Virus record (IMG/VR): IMGVR_UViG_3300008120_000314
Coordinates: 1-26,273 of that record
DNA: 26,273 nt
Reading direction: 5' to 3' (one strand)
Origin: a virus
Part shown: one piece after another, positions 2,118 to 9,445 of the stretch
How the letters are laid out: every line of letters begins with the position of its first letter
How positions within the stretch are numbered: position 1 is the first letter of the stretch
Position numbers and translations under genes: made by a program
Notes under the pieces: generated by a model
The model's database searches: none
The model's input: only the letters and a program-made list of their open reading frames with translations
Told to the model about the DNA's origin: nothing

Positions 2118-2144
2118 AACGCCACCTTCGGGTGGCGTTTTTTT
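2118..2144 (+). terminator. intrinsic terminator after gp32, UUCG tetraloop
   Basis: Bases 2118-2126 pair perfectly with 2131-2139 (AACGCCACC / GGTGGCGTT, nine pairs). They close a C(TTCG)G loop, one of the most stable RNA tetraloops, and the T run extends to 2144. It begins six bases after the gp32 stop codon. The convergent gene on the - strand has its stop at 2143-2145, inside the T run. Read on the - strand the hairpin is followed by GCAGTTTAAT, so it would be a weak terminator in that direction. Confidence 0.92.
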
Positions 2145-3957
2145 ATGCTGGCACTGCAACGTTTGTTCGTTTCGTTTCTGCTACAACGTTGTTTGTTGTA
2201 CGTGCGTTAATGTAAGTTGGATTCTGCGGTTTGGATTGTTCTCTTTGTTCTTTTGATAGTTCAGATGAAGATTTTCCTATATCATAATCTGGCGCCTGTT
2301 TTCCTGTTGCCAAGTCAACGGGTTTTCCAGATTTGTTTGGAACAATGTCACCATCAGGTGTGGGTAGACTTTTCAAAGGAGTTACGTGCCAATCTTCTCT
2401 CTTAGAAGGATCTTTTCCCTGTTTTATTAGGAAAGAGGATGTGACTGGTCTTGTAAGCCCGAATTTTTCTAACCAACCTTTAGGGTTGTCAACGTCACCC
2501 GCTAACGTTCCAAACATTTGACCTTTTGCTTGAATATCAATAGCAGTACCACCTGTGTGTGGTGATCCCGCACCAGATGTACCATCAGCACCTTTTAGTG
2601 GTGCAGCAGGTCGAGCAACGACACCTCCTTTTTTACCAGATGCAATCCATTTGTCGTAGAGTTCTTTTTGTTCTTGATTTGAACGATATGCTGAGTTGAT
2701 AAGAAGTTTTTGTCCTGTTTCTTTTGTGTATGCTGTTGCCATTTGCACCAAAAGTTTTTCAAATTCAGGCTTCAATCCAGAATAATCAATAGGAGTAAAT
2801 TTTGGTGAATTGTCTTTAACAACCGATTGCAAACTGACCGATGAAGATGGTTCTTTTGCTGGCTCGGGCAAAGGTGCCATTGTTCCATCTGACGGTGGAA
2901 CTTTATTTACGTCAATTTTAGGTTCTTCTTTTTTCGGTGCAGGAGTTGGTGTTACGGGTCTTTCTTCAATCGGAGGTAATTTTTTTTCTTCTTTTCTGAA
3001 TAAACGTTCCAGAAAAGGTTTCTTTTTTTCTTCTTCAAGTCTTCTTTGTGCCTCTTTTTCAGCTTCTTCTTTTTGTTTTTTCTTCTTCTCTTCTTCTAGT
3101 TTTTGTTTTTCTTTTGCTAGGTTATCTTTTTTTTCCGTTAAATCTTTATCTTCCCGATCAAGTTTTGAATACTCTTCTTCCAACTCTTTCGATTTTTTTA
3201 CTAGAATTTCTCTTGTTGTTCGTCTTTCTTCCAGTTTGTCAACATCGACACCAAGAACATCTATGGCAAACACCCTTCCTAATTGTTGAAGTCTTGGAGA
3301 TAACCATTCTACAGCCATTTCAATATATTTTCCAATACCCTTAATCATTTCTTTATAAAAAGAACCTGCTTGCATAATATAATTACCAACTTGTTCTTCA
3401 CTGATTAAACCGAAACTCAAAAAACTCAAATACTTTTTGAAGGAAGATTCAAATAAATTTAGCCAATCAGTGTTTTCGTATAACGATTTTATCCCATCAG
3501 ATATAAAACCTATTCCTTCTTTTACTTTCGAAATTAAGTCTTCAACATATGGAGTTATGATTTCAGTTACTTTGTATACGATATATCCAATTGAAAGTAG
3601 AGTTCCAATAAACAAGAGTTTAATTAATGTAACTAATTTGTCTAATATTCCGGCCAAAAAAGTTCTCTTTTTTTCTTTACCGTATTTTTTAACTTTAATA
3701 TTGGCAACTTTTATTTCTTTTGATTCGGAAAGTGATTTGGTTAAATCAGATATTTGTCCACCAACGGCAGGTTGAATGTTATGTAACTTTACAAATCTAG
3801 AGAAAGTATTGCTAAGTGATCTTAGTTGTTTTGCCATTGATGGAAACAACAAAGTTTCTTTGGCGACAATACGCATCGCTGCTATACCTTTTGGTGTAGC
3901 AGTATCTTTTACTACTTTACTTTCTGGATTTGTTTTATTAAAAAGTTTATCAAACAT
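2143..3957 (-). CDS. tail-associated structural protein with M15 zinc peptidase domain (third paralog; tape-measure candidate)
   Basis: 604 aa. The C-terminal third (about residues 390-530) is an M15-type (VanY/L-alanyl-D-glutamate or D,D-carboxypeptidase-like) domain. It shows SAYRS at 422-426, SPHTGGTAIDI with zinc ligands H467 and D474, and EDWH with catalytic E521 and zinc ligand H524. Such enzymes cut peptidoglycan peptide bridges. Before it come a helical N-module (about 25-60), a hydrophobic membrane-like segment (about 105-130), an amphipathic central region with GLISEEQV (183-190), a Lys/Glu coiled coil (about 250-315) and a Pro-rich linker. The N-module, membrane segment, central region and QREQ...TNN tail (571-590) are shared with the 700-aa protein and more weakly with the 573-aa protein. 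The start overlaps the previous stop as TAATG. Likely role: a virion protein that opens the cell wall during DNA entry. The tape-measure role is inference; an ejected internal protein is the alternative. Confidence 0.8.
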   Translation of the reverse strand: MFDKLFNKTNPESKVVKDTATPKGIAAMRIVAKETLLFPSMAKQLRSLSNTFSRFVKLHNIQPAVGGQISDLTKSLSESKEIKVANIKVKKYGKEKKRTFLAGILDKLVTLIKLLFIGTLLSIGYIVYKVTEIITPYVEDLISKVKEGIGFISDGIKSLYENTDWLNLFESSFKKYLSFLSFGLISEEQVGNYIMQAGSFYKEMIKGIGKYIEMAVEWLSPRLQQLGRVFAIDVLGVDVDKLEERRTTREILVKKSKELEEEYSKLDREDKDLTEKKDNLAKEKQKLEEEKKKKQKEEAEKEAQRRLEEEKKKPFLERLFRKEEKKLPPIEERPVTPTPAPKKEEPKIDVNKVPPSDGTMAPLPEPAKEPSSSVSLQSVVKDNSPKFTPIDYSGLKPEFEKLLVQMATAYTKETGQKLLINSAYRSNQEQKELYDKWIASGKKGGVVARPAAPLKGADGTSGAGSPHTGGTAIDIQAKGQMFGTLAGDVDNPKGWLEKFGLTRPVTSSFLIKQGKDPSKREDWHVTPLKSLPTPDGDIVPNKSGKPVDLATGKQAPDYDIGKSSSELSKEQREQSKPQNPTYINARTTNNVVAETKRTNVAVPA

Positions 3958-6059
3958 TAGGTTGTTCTATTTGCCAATGCTTCTGTTGGGTCTGTTTTTT
4001 CTACTGACGCTACGTTTTGATTATTTGTTTTCTTGATGTTATTTGTTTTACTTGCGTCAGCTACATTCACATCTTTAGGCTTCATTTGTTCTCTTTGATT
4101 TTGAGCTAATTGTTTCGATTCTTCACCAATATATTTTCCAGCAGATGCAACTTTTGTTGATGATAAAATTGATGCTAATGCTACCGAACCTTGTTTGTCG
4201 TTAGCAGCACCAGAACGAATTAAACTTACTGTTGCCGGCGCTCTGTCTCCAACTTGTTTGTACCATTTACTTGCTTTAAATTCATCGGCAGCTTCTTTAA
4301 ATTTACCTTCTTTAAGTAAACCAGCAGCAATTTTAAATTTTTTGTACCAATATCCGCCCATGTTATAGGTTAAATCAATCAAACCTGCTTTACCTGCTTC
4401 GTTTGCTATATCCCAACCGGGTGCTTTTTTAGCAAGGTCTAAATGTTCTTTAAAATCTTTTTCAAATAATTCACGAACTTCTTGATTTGAAAATTCTCTG
4501 TCCCATTCTTTAGGTAAAGTTTTTCCGTCACCAATCAAGTGTCCAACACCAACTGTCCACAGCCCACGTGAATCTTTGTAGGGCTTATTTTTCCATCCTT
4601 CATTTGCGATTACCATTTGTTTAATGGCTTCATATTCGCCGCTTGTTGCTGATGGTTTAGAAGTTGTTGGTGTTATCGCTGGCGTTGGTTTTGTTGCTGC
4701 TTTAATCTCTTCTTTTTTTGTTGCTGGTTTAACTACAGGTTCGGTTTTAACTTTCTTTGAAATTTTTCTTTCATCATCACCAGCATCACCTATGCCTTCA
4801 AATTGTTCTGTTCGTTCTTTTTCCAGTGCAACTAATTTTTGTTCTTCTTTTGCCTTTTCTATTTTAGCTTCTTGCAAACGAGCCTTTTCTGGACCTTCGG
4901 TCATCTCAGTTATACTATATTCCAAAACCGAAATTTCAACTTTTAATTGTGCAATTCTTGTTTTTTTTCTTTCAATAGATTCACTCATCTGTTCAAAATA
5001 CTTGCCGTATTTTTCAAACATTTCAGCATCATCTTTCAAACGTTTTTCATTTAACTCTTCAAAAGAGGATTTGTAATCTTCGGGTCTAGACTGTGTTGTA
5101 AATAAAGACTTTGCTTTACTAATGATGAATGTGGCAAAACTAGTAACCTTTTCTTCAACAAATTTGATGGCACTGTCAATAGTATTAAATACTTTCATTG
5201 CCATCGTGTCTATCCATTCGACAAAAGAGTCCTTAAAGTTTTTTATATTGTCTTGACCAAATATACCAAACGTAAGAGAATCAATTACACTTACAATAAA
5301 TTTGTCAATAAAATCTTCACCTTTTACAAATGCTTCCCATGTTTCTTTTATGGGTTCCCATAAAATCAAACCAATTAAAACAGCACCGGCGACAATAGGC
5401 AAAAATGGACCTGACCAAACTGACGCCAGTATTGAAACAGATGCTCTTTGAATTAACTTAGTTAAACCTTTTTGCATAAAACGTTTAATGGCATTTGTAA
5501 ACATCTCAATTAGAGGTTTCATTATTTTTGATGTGTTCTTTTTAAACCACTCCAGAAACATCTTTTTAATGTTTAATTTACCTAATAAATTTTTCAAGCC
5601 AGACATTACTTTTCGTTTAAAACGAATTAACTTACGAATGGCTGTTAATTTTCTATAACGTTTTAATACTGCTGCTGTTAGATTTCGTTCAAACTTTCTT
5701 GATACTTTATATCCAATAAACGCTGCAACTAAAGTTTTTGCCCAGCCTTTGTTGCCACTTGTGCCGTCTTTTGCACCTGGAGATATTTTTGAACCAACAT
5801 ATTTTTCACGTAGAACATTGAATTTTTTTGCACGTTCATCATCTTTGAGAAGATGCATATCAGGTGTGCCTTTAACCTTCACACCTTCCATTGCTAAGTA
5901 GCGTGAGAAATTTAACTTGACTAGTTTCAGCTCTTCTGCCATTTTACCTATGGCAAGATAATTAATTGCTGTTTTTTTAAGCGCACCAACTACTGGTGAT
6001 GGGGATGATTTGTTTAAGTCACCCTTGTCTATTGTAAGACCAAGAAGATCGGATAACAT
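3957..6059 (-). CDS. tail-associated structural protein with T4-type lysozyme domain (second paralog; tape-measure candidate)
   Basis: 700 aa. Residues about 475-620 form a T4-lysozyme-like (glycoside hydrolase 24) muramidase. ANEGW...YKDSRGLWTVGVGH places the triad at E487, D496 and T502, with the same 9 and 6 residue spacing as E11, D20 and T26 of T4 lysozyme. Further on, LIDLTYNMG and KWYKQVGDRA match its later helices. In front lie a helical N-module (about 24-58), a long basic helical stretch (120-205), a hydrophobic segment (about 207-233), a central motif FGIFGQDNI (264-272), a coiled coil (about 335-420) and a Lys/Pro/Thr linker. The tail has QREQMKP (655-661) and TNN (672-674), as in the 604-aa protein. 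Both ends join neighbours by TAATG overlaps. Because gp5 here lacks lysozyme, this is the best candidate for the tail lysozyme used at entry rather than a holin-dependent endolysin. The tape-measure role is inferred. Confidence 0.83.
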   Translation of the reverse strand: MLSDLLGLTIDKGDLNKSSPSPVVGALKKTAINYLAIGKMAEELKLVKLNFSRYLAMEGVKVKGTPDMHLLKDDERAKKFNVLREKYVGSKISPGAKDGTSGNKGWAKTLVAAFIGYKVSRKFERNLTAAVLKRYRKLTAIRKLIRFKRKVMSGLKNLLGKLNIKKMFLEWFKKNTSKIMKPLIEMFTNAIKRFMQKGLTKLIQRASVSILASVWSGPFLPIVAGAVLIGLILWEPIKETWEAFVKGEDFIDKFIVSVIDSLTFGIFGQDNIKNFKDSFVEWIDTMAMKVFNTIDSAIKFVEEKVTSFATFIISKAKSLFTTQSRPEDYKSSFEELNEKRLKDDAEMFEKYGKYFEQMSESIERKKTRIAQLKVEISVLEYSITEMTEGPEKARLQEAKIEKAKEEQKLVALEKERTEQFEGIGDAGDDERKISKKVKTEPVVKPATKKEEIKAATKPTPAITPTTSKPSATSGEYEAIKQMVIANEGWKNKPYKDSRGLWTVGVGHLIGDGKTLPKEWDREFSNQEVRELFEKDFKEHLDLAKKAPGWDIANEAGKAGLIDLTYNMGGYWYKKFKIAAGLLKEGKFKEAADEFKASKWYKQVGDRAPATVSLIRSGAANDKQGSVALASILSSTKVASAGKYIGEESKQLAQNQREQMKPKDVNVADASKTNNIKKTNNQNVASVEKTDPTEALANRTT

Positions 6060-7780
6060 TATGGCACAGCGTAATAAGAGTTAATAAATTCACTGTTATA
6101 TGCGCCAGCAGTTTCTTTAGGTTTTTTACCTGTGCTTGTTGAACTGTTGTTCACCGTTCCAGCATCAACATACACTCCAGCATCAGCAGCCGAATCCATT
6201 CTTTGTCCTTCAGCAACTTCAGATGATGTTGATGATAATGCAGCACCCGAAGTCGTTGGGGAAGATGCTGCTGGTGAAGGGGATGATTCTGAAGGTGTAA
6301 CAGAACTTGCTGTACTAGGTGCGCCAGACATTCCTGTTGCACCACTGGCACTTTTTGCCTCAGTAGAACCAGCATCAGTGGTAGTACCAACTGCACCAGT
6401 TGATGTTGCAGCTTTAACTTGTTCTGGAGAAGTTTCTTTACTTCTTATTACTTTTAAAATTTTATCAGGATTACCACCTTCGTCAGCAATTGCTTGTCTT
6501 ACTGCTTGTTCGGATATTTCAAAGTTTGTGCCTACTCTTGAAAATCCAGTTTTAGAATTTGGGTCTATTTGTACAAAGGCTTTTTTTCTTAGAAACTCTA
6601 TTGCTGCTTCTTTATTTGTTTCGGCTTTTGTTGCTAAAGATTCTTTAGACGCTGTTCCAGTTTTACCTTTTTCTTTTGTGGGTTTACCTGCTGATGCATC
6701 TGATGAAACTACGTTGCCCGCAGCATCATAAGTTGTTTCTCCTAGTGCTGTTTTTCCTTTGCCCAAATCTTCTTTTGGTGGCGGCACCGGTGCAGTTGCA
6801 CCGGTTGGCTGCACAGTAACACTTTCTTTTTTCTTATCGAATGGTCTGAAACCAGGAACTTGAATATCTGAAAAACCCAATCCAATTTTTTTCAGAAGAT
6901 CACCAACACCAGGTATATCATTTATTTTTGAAAGTGGTATCGTAAACGGATCCCAACCAACATTATCTTTAAGCCAACTAACAATTTTATTAAATGTCTC
7001 ACCCATAACATCAATCATTGGTGCTAGATATTCCGACAGACTATCTAAAGACTTACGTAACTCTTTTTCACCAAATAAACCCGCAGTGATAAAATCTAGA
7101 AATTTACCAACGCCTTTAATTAGAGTTTCTTTTACTATATCTGTTTCTGTTATTTTTTGCCAACCTTCTTTAATTGTTTCAAATAATCCTTCAATCAATG
7201 GTAATGGATTTAATTTGTCTGCAATGTCAGACATTAACTTGCCAAGATCGAAAACTTTAAGAAATGCCATACCCAAACCAATAAACAAACCACCCAAAAT
7301 ACTTTTAATCAGATCCCAAAGAAAACTGAGAATACCTTCTTCTTCACCACCTTTTTCCATTCTTTCTTTTTTGGCTTTACCTTCTCTTTCTTGAATTGGC
7401 GCAGTTTCTTGTTTACGTGCTGCTTCTAATTCTGCCTCACGTTGATCTTCTGACTTAAAGAATTTGTCTGCTTTTGTAAGAGCTTCTGCATTTTTTAGTT
7501 TTACCAACTTGACGATATTTTGACGAAGCACATTCATGTCTCTTGCCATACCAGGCAAAGCAAGAGAGTTTTTAGCAATGATGTTTAGAAAAGGTATGAT
7601 ATCTTCACTGATTGAACCTTCTGATGGATTGCCCACCTTAGTTGGTGAAGTTGAACTTTTTCTTTTTTTGGAAAAGATAGACTCAGCTAGGCTTTTACCT
7701 CTACCTATCGTTCTTTTCATATCAGCGAAACTTATATAACCAAGTTCTTTCGCTAAGTCTTCAAACGTTTTATTTGCCAT
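6059..7780 (-). CDS. tail-associated structural protein, first paralog, no enzyme domain (tape-measure candidate)
   Basis: 573 aa, close to the 590 aa of the T4 tape measure gp29, though I see no direct similarity to gp29. Residues 62-95 (IPFLNIIAKNSLALPGMA and following) align without gaps with the N-modules of the 604- and 700-aa proteins. A hydrophobic Gly-rich segment lies at about 150-177, and a helical central region with AGLFGEKEL (233-241) matches their central motifs. Residues 385-455 form a small helical domain I do not recognise. About 455-525 is a low-complexity Ser/Thr/Ala/Pro linker. The end carries a degenerate tail module (QR at 526, VNN at 543-545). It lacks the hydrolase present in its sisters. 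It is the first gene after gp26 and its -1 frame extension, and its ATG overlaps that frame's TAA. This is where tape-measure genes sit relative to tail-assembly chaperones. Confidence 0.7.
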   Translation of the reverse strand: MANKTFEDLAKELGYISFADMKRTIGRGKSLAESIFSKKRKSSTSPTKVGNPSEGSISEDIIPFLNIIAKNSLALPGMARDMNVLRQNIVKLVKLKNAEALTKADKFFKSEDQREAELEAARKQETAPIQEREGKAKKERMEKGGEEEGILSFLWDLIKSILGGLFIGLGMAFLKVFDLGKLMSDIADKLNPLPLIEGLFETIKEGWQKITETDIVKETLIKGVGKFLDFITAGLFGEKELRKSLDSLSEYLAPMIDVMGETFNKIVSWLKDNVGWDPFTIPLSKINDIPGVGDLLKKIGLGFSDIQVPGFRPFDKKKESVTVQPTGATAPVPPPKEDLGKGKTALGETTYDAAGNVVSSDASAGKPTKEKGKTGTASKESLATKAETNKEAAIEFLRKKAFVQIDPNSKTGFSRVGTNFEISEQAVRQAIADEGGNPDKILKVIRSKETSPEQVKAATSTGAVGTTTDAGSTEAKSASGATGMSGAPSTASSVTPSESSPSPAASSPTTSGAALSSTSSEVAEGQRMDSAADAGVYVDAGTVNNSSTSTGKKPKETAGAYNSEFINSYYAVP

Positions 7781-7917
7781 TATCGTTTTTGTTTTTGTGC
7801 GTTAATACGTTCTTTTTCTTCTTCCAAATAATTAACTAACAGACTAATGTAGATGTTTCTTTCCCAAGGTAGCATTTCTTCTAGTTCGGTCAAACTATAC
7901 TTGTGATGCTGCATCAT
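7780..7917 (-). CDS. small helical ORF; probably the C-terminal domain of a gp26 -1 frameshift product
   Basis: From ATG at 7917 the frame gives 45 aa beginning MMQHHKYSLTELEEMLPWER and ending at a TAA (7782-7780) that overlaps the ATG of the 573-aa gene. No Shine-Dalgarno sequence precedes the ATG. The same frame is open further back to the end of gp26, and the extra upstream residues (LIFRYDTLANYYQTNFA) also look protein-like. The natural reading is therefore a 63-residue extension (7971-7780) joined to gp26 by -1 frameshifting. The pattern SLTELEEMLPWER followed by an amphipathic helix and a charged tail resembles the downstream parts of frameshifted tail-assembly chaperones in other phages; this is my recollection of a general pattern, not a search. 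The alternative is an independent 45-aa protein made by reinitiation. Confidence 0.68.
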   Translation of the reverse strand: MMQHHKYSLTELEEMLPWERNIYISLLVNYLEEEKERINAQKQKR

Positions 7918-7964
7918 TGCAAAATTTGTCTGATAATAATTAGCTAAAGTGTCATAACGAAATA

Positions 7965-8696
7965 TTAGGCGAAAAAATTTTGGAGTCCTTTAACCACCAT
8001 GTCCTCCTTATACCCACACTTTGGACAATCAAATTCAAAATCTTTTTTAATTTCAGGCATCGTGTCAAAGAACATACGAATTTTTTCTAAATCTTTTTGT
8101 TGCATAGAATCTACAAACTCTTCCAATTCTTTACGAGAAGAGTCTTTGGCATAGTATACTTGATCATCGTCGTAGAGATAATCAATACAGTCAACCAAAA
8201 TATTAACCATAATATCATTCTCTTCCATTTGTTCATATTTTTGAACCATCTCAAAAGTCGGATACTTTAAACAGATGCCAATTTTATCATTCAACATAAA
8301 CTTATTTGAATGTTCATTATGTTTTGTTGGCTGAATTTCTAAGAGATTGACATTAAATTCTACAGTACCGTTACAAACAGTGTCTTCACCTTTGTCATTT
8401 TTTACCGTGTTGTTACATTTGTATTTTAAATTTACAACTTCTTCTACCGATCTTGCACGTAGATTCATGAACAGATATTCAAGATCAAATGTGGGCAACG
8501 AATCAATATCAATATCATCTAGTACACAGTTCTTTAGAACTTGCTTAATTGTATTAATTGTTTCTTTGGAATCTTCTGATTCTGCTGCCATTAAAAAAAG
8601 TTTCTGTTCTTTGACCAAAAATGGTCGAATTCGAACTTCTTTTCCTGTCGAAATCAAATTTACAGAATAAAGTGGTACATCAAGTTTTGGTAACAT
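7965..8696 (-). CDS. gp26: gp26-like baseplate hub / tail-assembly protein
   Basis: 243 aa (T4 gp26: 208). It begins MLPKLDVPLYSVNLISTGKE and continues IRPFLVKEQKLFLMAAES, typical of the conserved T4 gp26 family (Pfam name T4_baseplate, from memory). Four cysteines in two pairs, C94/C108 and C224/C227 (CPKC), could form a zinc ribbon. Context agrees: as in T4, gp26 lies on the strand opposite gp25. A good ribosome-binding site (AGAGGA, 8706-8701) precedes the ATG. Classical T4 work places gp26 in hub assembly with gp51, which acts catalytically. The end of the gene carries a -1 slippery sequence that would produce a longer form of about 305 aa. That makes an assembly-chaperone role (like lambda gpG/gpGT) more likely than a purely structural one; this is inference. 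Confidence 0.8.
   Translation of the reverse strand: MLPKLDVPLYSVNLISTGKEVRIRPFLVKEQKLFLMAAESEDSKETINTIKQVLKNCVLDDIDIDSLPTFDLEYLFMNLRARSVEEVVNLKYKCNNTVKNDKGEDTVCNGTVEFNVNLLEIQPTKHNEHSNKFMLNDKIGICLKYPTFEMVQKYEQMEENDIMVNILVDCIDYLYDDDQVYYAKDSSRKELEEFVDSMQQKDLEKIRMFFDTMPEIKKDFEFDCPKCGYKEDMVVKGLQNFFA
7971..7980 (-). promoter_or_regulatory. candidate -1 ribosomal frameshift site at the end of gp26
   Basis: On the - strand gp26 ends CAA AAT TTT TTC GCC TAA. Two slippery heptamers fit in the reading frame: A AAT TTT (7980-7974) and T TTT TTC (7977-7971). The second allows both tRNA-Phe to re-pair on TTT TTT after slipping back one base, after which the ribosome enters the frame that stays open to 7780. 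The site lies just one sense codon (GCC) before the normal stop. An AAAGGA (7991-7986) eight bases upstream could act as a Shine-Dalgarno-like stimulator. I see no clear downstream stem-loop. Confidence 0.62.
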
Positions 8697-8713: not shown

Positions 8714-9445
8714 TTAAAATAAACTTCTTCCAATTGTCGAAATGGCTCCAGCACCAAGTGTTGTAAGAGTTTGACCAATATCAAAACTACCTTCATAAAT
8801 TGGGCGATATTTTTGATACGCAAAACTTATTGACAGTCGATGAAATCCATCATCACCCCAATTCAATGCTTGTGGGGCAATACCTACTGGAAATGCATCA
8901 ATTAGTTCGACGGCAAAAATTTGACGAACTAAATCATCATATTGTATAATTTTTATGTTTGTCAAATATCTCGATGCATTACTTTTTGGAAATCTGATAT
9001 TGTTTGTGTCTGATGGAATAATTGCCTCCATCCAACGATCAAACAATTTGCGTTCATAAAAATCGTTTGTACAAATAAAGGTAAAATTTGTATCTGAATA
9101 CTGCATACGATAAGGCACTTTAAATGATGGACCATAGATTCGTACATCAGCAGTTTCTAATGTTCTGCCTGGCAGTTCTGCTGCTTCGCATTGAAGTGCC
9201 AAGTATCTAGACACAGTTGGATTTGCACCATTGCTGCCATTACCAGTGCCTAGAGCCTGATTGATTGCGCTTGAAACATCACTAAAAATTGAATTCGGAA
9301 AATTGAGAATTTTTTCTAATACAGAGTTTCCAACTGCTTGAGCAATGTATGCCGGCAAAGGTATAATAACTTCAAAACGACAAGGGCGTGCGGGACCGCC
9401 CTTTGCATTCATATTCGACAAAAATAGATTAGGTGAAAACGACAT
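8714..9445 (-). CDS. gp54: tail-tube-fold protein, probable baseplate tube initiator gp54 (gp19 family)
   Basis: 243 aa. It starts MSFSPNLFLSNMNAKGGPAR and contains the tube-family stretch CEAAELPGRTLETADVRIYG (about residues 85-105), followed by a TFICTNDFYERKLFDRWMEAI segment. The family includes T4 gp19 (tail tube) and the tube-initiating gp54, which share a fold. Here it sits among baseplate genes, between the gp4 cluster and gp26 and away from any sheath gene, so the gp54-like initiator on top of the gp48 ring is preferred over the major tube protein. It is longer than T4 gp19 (163 aa) and shorter than T4 gp54 (320 aa). Its ATG overlaps the upstream stop as TAATG. A 17-base gap carrying the gp26 ribosome-binding site follows. 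Confidence 0.68.
   Translation of the reverse strand: MSFSPNLFLSNMNAKGGPARPCRFEVIIPLPAYIAQAVGNSVLEKILNFPNSIFSDVSSAINQALGTGNGSNGANPTVSRYLALQCEAAELPGRTLETADVRIYGPSFKVPYRMQYSDTNFTFICTNDFYERKLFDRWMEAIIPSDTNNIRFPKSNASRYLTNIKIIQYDDLVRQIFAVELIDAFPVGIAPQALNWGDDGFHRLSISFAYQKYRPIYEGSFDIGQTLTTLGAGAISTIGRSLF

Follow-up and report, generated by a model that had tools for sequence, protein, structure and literature searches.

The window, by which we mean the whole stretch of 26,273 nucleotides analysed here (IMG/VR virus record IMGVR_UViG_3300008120_000314, positions 1 to 26,273), carries gene 26 on its minus strand (7965-8696). Its product, gp26 (243 residues), matches PF12322 (E 3e-62; 210 bits against a curated cut-off of 24.5) and phrog_150 (E 2e-68), gave an AF2 model with a pLDDT of 87.4 and is probably the short form of a tail (hub) assembly chaperone. 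The gene for the tail tube protein lies directly upstream (8714-9445, minus strand; phrog_45 tail tube, E 3e-35), as it does in other tail assembly chaperone (TAC) loci. The gene that follows (6059-7780, minus strand) encodes a 573-residue protein with a hydrophobic segment, a candidate tape-measure or hub protein on account of its position; hhalign aligns it to T4 gp29 only weakly (probability 20%). Past it are two large genes (2143-6059, minus strand) encoding a phage lysozyme domain and a VanY peptidase domain, which suggests tail-borne wall-degrading proteins adjoining the hub genes.

Read on the minus strand, gp26 ends CAA AAT TTT TTC GCC TAA, with the stop codon at 7967-7965. Two heptamers are in the gp26 frame, A AAT TTT at 7980-7974 and T TTT TTC at 7977-7971, the latter in codons 241-242. 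From here the -1 frame can be read through 63 codons to a stop (7971-7780 with the stop, minus strand). The last A of that stop, TAA 7782-7780, is shared with the ATG of the next gene, giving TAATG at 7778-7782 (minus strand). Both the in-frame heptamers and the 63 open codons up to TAATG had been described in a first-pass annotation of the window and are confirmed by the sequence. On the other side, a TAA at 7992 shuts the -1 frame seven codons short of the slip site, so that far-upstream starts inside gp26 in that frame cannot reach the extension.

The first-pass annotation treated the extension as an extra domain alongside gp51. By homology, it is instead gene 51 itself, and no new domain. 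Residues 2-62 match phrog_634, 'baseplate hub assembly catalyst', which is gp51 (E 9e-27), and a tblastn search with the extension matched annotated gp51 beside gp26 in cyanophages, with identity of up to 64%. In T4 gp51 a PF12322 domain occupies residues 1-201, and the tail behind it matches phrog_150/634. In profile comparisons gp26 aligns to residues 5-204 of T-even gp51 (probability 96.6, E 5e-10) and the extension to residues 206-245 (probability 89.6, E 2e-6). The two matches are adjacent and gp26 plus the extension thus corresponds to all of gp51, the 63 codons representing its C-terminal domain.

Conservation of the slippery run and of the -1 extension reaches well outside this branch of T4-like phages. 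In the 80 IMG/VR loci closest to gp26, TTTTTTC precedes the stop and the -1 frame stays open without exception; contig ends truncate five of the extensions. When 80 loci were collected with the extension alone, 79 have gp26 in a frame that needs a -1 shift, none in frame and none at +1; the 80th is incomplete, yet the run is present. A reciprocal scan of 80 loci led by gp26 gave 79 with new locus ids, from which the incomplete L268 was dropped; each of the 78 that could be read combines T6 with an open -1 frame, the extension being homologous in 76 and cut short in two. We also hand-picked 19 isolates (four tblastn matches, 14 from a list of 60 rows, and T4), 16 with gp26 and the extension adjacent and three with two genes; the 16 include Kyanoviridae, Schizotequatrovirus, Ceceduovirus, Emdodecavirus and Pootjesviridae among others, and 15 of them have T6 or longer. 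When the loci are pooled, leaving aside the reciprocal scan, the run occurs in 175 of 176 and always begins at codon position 3; L132, where gp26 is cut by a contig end and T6C is present, was left out of the 176. These raw counts include partly identical contigs returned by the IMG/VR scans (for example, L007 and L101), whereas removal of sequences more than 90% alike over 150 nucleotides left 116.

Among these 116 the heptamer is TTTTTTC in 100, TTTTTTT in 10, TTTTTTA in four and TTTTTTG in two. The pattern of programmed -1 frameshifting, X XXY YYZ, is present as T TTT TTN in the zero frame (175/176 loci). Codon choice around the run is skewed. The codon preceding the two phenylalanine codons is always NNT (73% in comparable codons), the first phenylalanine codon is always TTT (70%) and the second is TTC in 100 of 110 (30%). 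The last bias fits the -1 frame, in which TTC keeps an arginine (99 of 115).

Two other heptamers were considered. A AAT TTT was rejected as the slip site since its second A varies: among 47 deduplicated close relatives codon 240 reads AAT 42 times and AGT five times, while both phenylalanine codons at 241-242 are invariant. Within gp26 a further in-frame heptamer, T TTT TTA at codon 34 (8592-8598, minus strand), is retained in only one of the 47 and is probably accidental. The run at codon 241, kept in 47 of 47, is by this comparison conserved beyond chance.

The exception to the pooled count is Pseudomonas phage Cygsa01 (L094, 1490-1503), which is without the T6 run and carries CATTTTCACCTAATG, with TAATG at the gp26 stop. 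It may represent a third solution, reinitiation in place of a frameshift. Separately, a T-even gene 51 in IMG/VR (L189, 2001-2746) changes reading frame mid-gene, through either a sequencing error or a real shift; A4 was built without this sequence, on account of the frame change, and without L183.

Selection on the extension was considered ahead of the window's first ATG. Codons 4-18, which separate that ATG from the gp26 stop, have a pN/pS of 0.152 when read in the -1 frame and of 1.14 and 1.26 in the other two, values taken from uncorrected proportions over 529 non-independent pairs of 115 sequences (one of the 116 was dropped for length). By this measure purifying selection ahead of the first ATG acts in the -1 frame alone, and positions 7962-7918, which make up most of this region, evolve as -1-frame protein. 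In addition, within 150 nucleotides the -1 frame has a stop in none of the 115 sequences and each other frame in all 115. The readings of the overlap as accidental, as an assembly error or as a decayed gene are refuted by conservation and have practically no chance of being correct: nothing turned up in their favour, independent contigs and isolates share the arrangement, and pN/pS is about 0.15.

Could gp51 be a short gene in its own right, with a start of its own reached by internal initiation or by termination-reinitiation? The records might be taken to say so, since 11 of the 16 isolates with the adjacent arrangement have a separate ORF annotated, and TAATG occurs at the gp26 stop in phi-Grn1, D486, RL2RES, RHph_I1_9, Cygsa01 and a few IMG/VR loci, the form in the two Rhizobium phages named here being TGATG. 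Homologues, however, have no conserved ATG or ribosome-binding site for the extension, none being common among the 115-116 deduplicated sequences. The first in-frame ATG falls anywhere from codon -18 to codon 34 (115 sequences); before codon 19 there is an ATG in 29 of 115 and any of ATG, GTG or TTG in 54 of 115. Starts in the -1 frame with a Shine-Dalgarno (SD) energy of -5 or lower number five in 116. In the window the extension had been credited with a single ATG, 18 codons in and lacking a ribosome-binding site. There are in fact three, at codons 19, 20 and 33; the ATG at 7917 scores -1.1 kcal/mol, compared with -6.0 for the gp26 start. Scores are also weak for some other genes of the window (1.3 for the 573-residue gene and -1.5 for those of 700 and 604 residues) and so a weak SD alone does not rule out a start. 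The strong -1-frame selection on codons 4-18, ahead of the first ATG, and the invariant T6 would nevertheless be left unexplained, and we consider a separate gene improbable. Some lineages do have TAATG or another start close to the junction, from which gp51 might also be translated by itself.

The strongest SD-like site of the region is AAGGAGG (8009-8003) followed by an in-frame ATG at 8000, within gp26 (7998-8009, minus strand; -11.3 kcal/mol). As a general start for gp51 this internal frame-0 site was rejected, since internal starts in frame 0 at an SD energy of -6 or lower occur in five of 116 sequences, as an ATG only in the window and L017. The T4 record annotates an internal in-frame product, 26'; the internal site of the window gp26 is not conserved.

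A different SD-like element, AAAGGA (7986-7991, minus strand), is positioned upstream of the slip site as a possible stimulator of frameshifting. Pairing with the 16S tail peaks 5-9 nucleotides upstream of the heptamer and reaches -4 kcal/mol or lower in up to 85% of the 116 sequences. The best SD-like energy averages -6.38, against -5.50 (s.d. 0.13) with synonymous codons, a contrast that is conservative because the synonymous codon pool was drawn from the same genes. The spacing is near that known to stimulate ribosomal -1 shifts. No consensus RNA structure was found downstream by RNAalifold on 112 of the 115 sequences (three were left out for spacing), and single-sequence folding of +6 to +96 gave a mean z of -1.24 over the 115.

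These details also bear on slippage of RNA polymerase, rather than of the ribosome, as the source of a fusion. In its favour are the homopolymer T run and the 7-8 T of 10 of 175 loci. The run is exactly six in the other 165, however, which is short for transcriptional slippage; the phase is always that of the X XXY YYZ heptamer, and the SD-like element lies upstream. Polymerase slippage appears to us as improbable as a separate gene.

Taken comparatively, the evidence that points to -1 frameshifting is very strong. We propose that in this T4-like phage genes 26 and 51 very probably form a single chaperone gene, in which a -1 slip yields a gp26-51 fusion and hence a short and long chaperone pair. 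Most ribosomes would terminate at TAA 7967-7965 to give gp26 of 243 residues. A minority would shift by -1 on U UUU UUC (7977-7971) and continue to 7780. The product of slippage would be a fusion of 305 residues (242 + 63), the equivalent of the long gene 51 protein that T4 encodes separately. The short and long forms are probably tail assembly chaperones that load the tape-measure or hub protein. The signals and their conservation, the selection on the -1 frame, the homology to T4 gp51 and the fold match are observed; the slippage itself, how often it happens and the role as chaperones are inferred. The first-pass suggestion that gp26 and the extension form the chaperone pair of this T4-like branch is thus supported, at the level of sequence and models, by the conservation, the -1-frame selection and the fold.

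The fold comparison deserves some care. The top Foldseek match of the window gp26 model in the PDB is the HK97 tail assembly chaperone, at an E value of 0.81 that is not significant (probability 0.80). VIA-align of the gp26 N-terminal domain likewise ranks the HK97 TAC first among solved structures (2ob9; Z 7.5, r.m.s.d. 3.6, 83 residues aligned), followed by 3klu (Z 7.3, r.m.s.d. 3.1, 84 aligned) and 3fgx (Z 7.1, r.m.s.d. 3.8, 85 aligned), which we take to be TAC relatives, and 5ir0 (Z 5.6, r.m.s.d. 4.3, 82 aligned); the following match scores only 2.9. A Z of about 7 can be a common structural arrangement and, with Z below 8, the match is supportive rather than conclusive. A model of T-even gp51 (pLDDT 80.8) had no Foldseek match in the PDB at E of 0.001 or lower and a best VIA Z of 4.2, and TACs were not retrieved. 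Against BFVD at the same threshold its named matches are mostly baseplate hub proteins of the gp26/gp51 type, the others being unnamed or uncharacterized. Searching the PDB by sequence gave no matches for gp26 and one, at chance level, for T4 gp51. TACs typically come as short and long forms with a common N-terminal domain, the long one arising via a -1 frameshift or a fused second gene; at the sequence level the locus has this hallmark, with a predicted -1 frameshift. Further traits of TACs are binding to the tape-measure protein, absence from the virion and a low, constant proportion of long to short form.

The first-pass annotation knew of no description of a frameshift in gp26. The idea is probably not new. 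Judging by its title and the papers citing it, the work of Vladimirov, Gautam and Davidson (2022) identified the chaperone genes of T4-like phages. An excerpt of the PRFect paper cites Vladimirov et al. (2022) for T4-like phages with a short gene and a long fusion gene, and one of PMC12846349 credits them with poly-T slippery sequences in T4-like TAC genes. On these citations, that study likely covers gene 26 of the cyanophage-like branch. In the partial texts that a literature search returned, no other paper described a gp26/gp51 frameshift. What the present analysis adds is breadth, the evidence of selection and the SD-like element.

Two annotated T4-like genes, one of them a 'catalyst' of unknown action, would then become one frameshifted chaperone pair. 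For annotators we advise a joined CDS, which none of the 16 isolate records with the adjacent arrangement has. A diagnostic junction peptide (tryptic GLQNFFR here) can be searched for in existing infection proteomics. It may further be that frameshifting from gene 26 into 51 is the general T4-like state, seen in cyanophages, vibriophages, Aeromonas and Rhizobium phages and most uncultured relatives, with the T4 two-gene layout having arisen from it by duplication and by loss of the slip site from each copy, and with the SD-like stimulator acting alone, without downstream structure; we regard the case for and against this broader reading as evenly balanced. In a tree of 23 gp26/gp51 domains, whose root and direction of change are unsettled, frameshift gp26, split gp26 and gp51 each group.

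T4 gp26 and the window gp26 belong to one family (PF12322), and the last 40 or so residues of T-even gp51 are homologous to the extension. Unlike the window, T4, Aeromonas phage 44RR and Stenotrophomonas phage IME13 have the short and long forms as two divergent genes, and at the ends and junctions inspected these split-gene phages are without the T6 run (TTC TTT GAG at the end of T4 gene 26; GTG TTT AAG at the T4 gene 51 junction). T4 and its relatives thereby offer a natural comparison of duplicated with frameshifted chaperones. Both T4 gp26 and gp51 are listed as hub assembly chaperones in an excerpt of PMC3004832. In cyanophages and marine vibriophages gene 51 and its arrangement are as in the window, with records giving gp51 as a separate or missing ORF, and their gp51 is described as being without the first 200 or so residues (Sullivan et al., 2010; PMC3037559), in an excerpt where frameshifting is unmentioned. 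The missing residues are the part that a frameshift would supply from gp26, which would account for the truncated look of cyanophage gp51.

The TAC locus of Pakpunavirus Adele, as excerpted from PMC12846349, has a poly-T slippery sequence and an uninterrupted -1 frame as in the window, although the motif is GTTTTT and the phage belongs to a different family, Vandenendeviridae. Compared with the HK97 chaperone, gp26 is about twice as long and has a further beta-rich part. In lambda, the G/GT gene comes right after the tail tube gene, with a slippery site near its 3' end and a -1 extension. The window shares this layout with lambda G/GT and other -1 frameshifted tail assembly chaperones, and the closest solved fold to gp26 is that of the HK97 chaperone.
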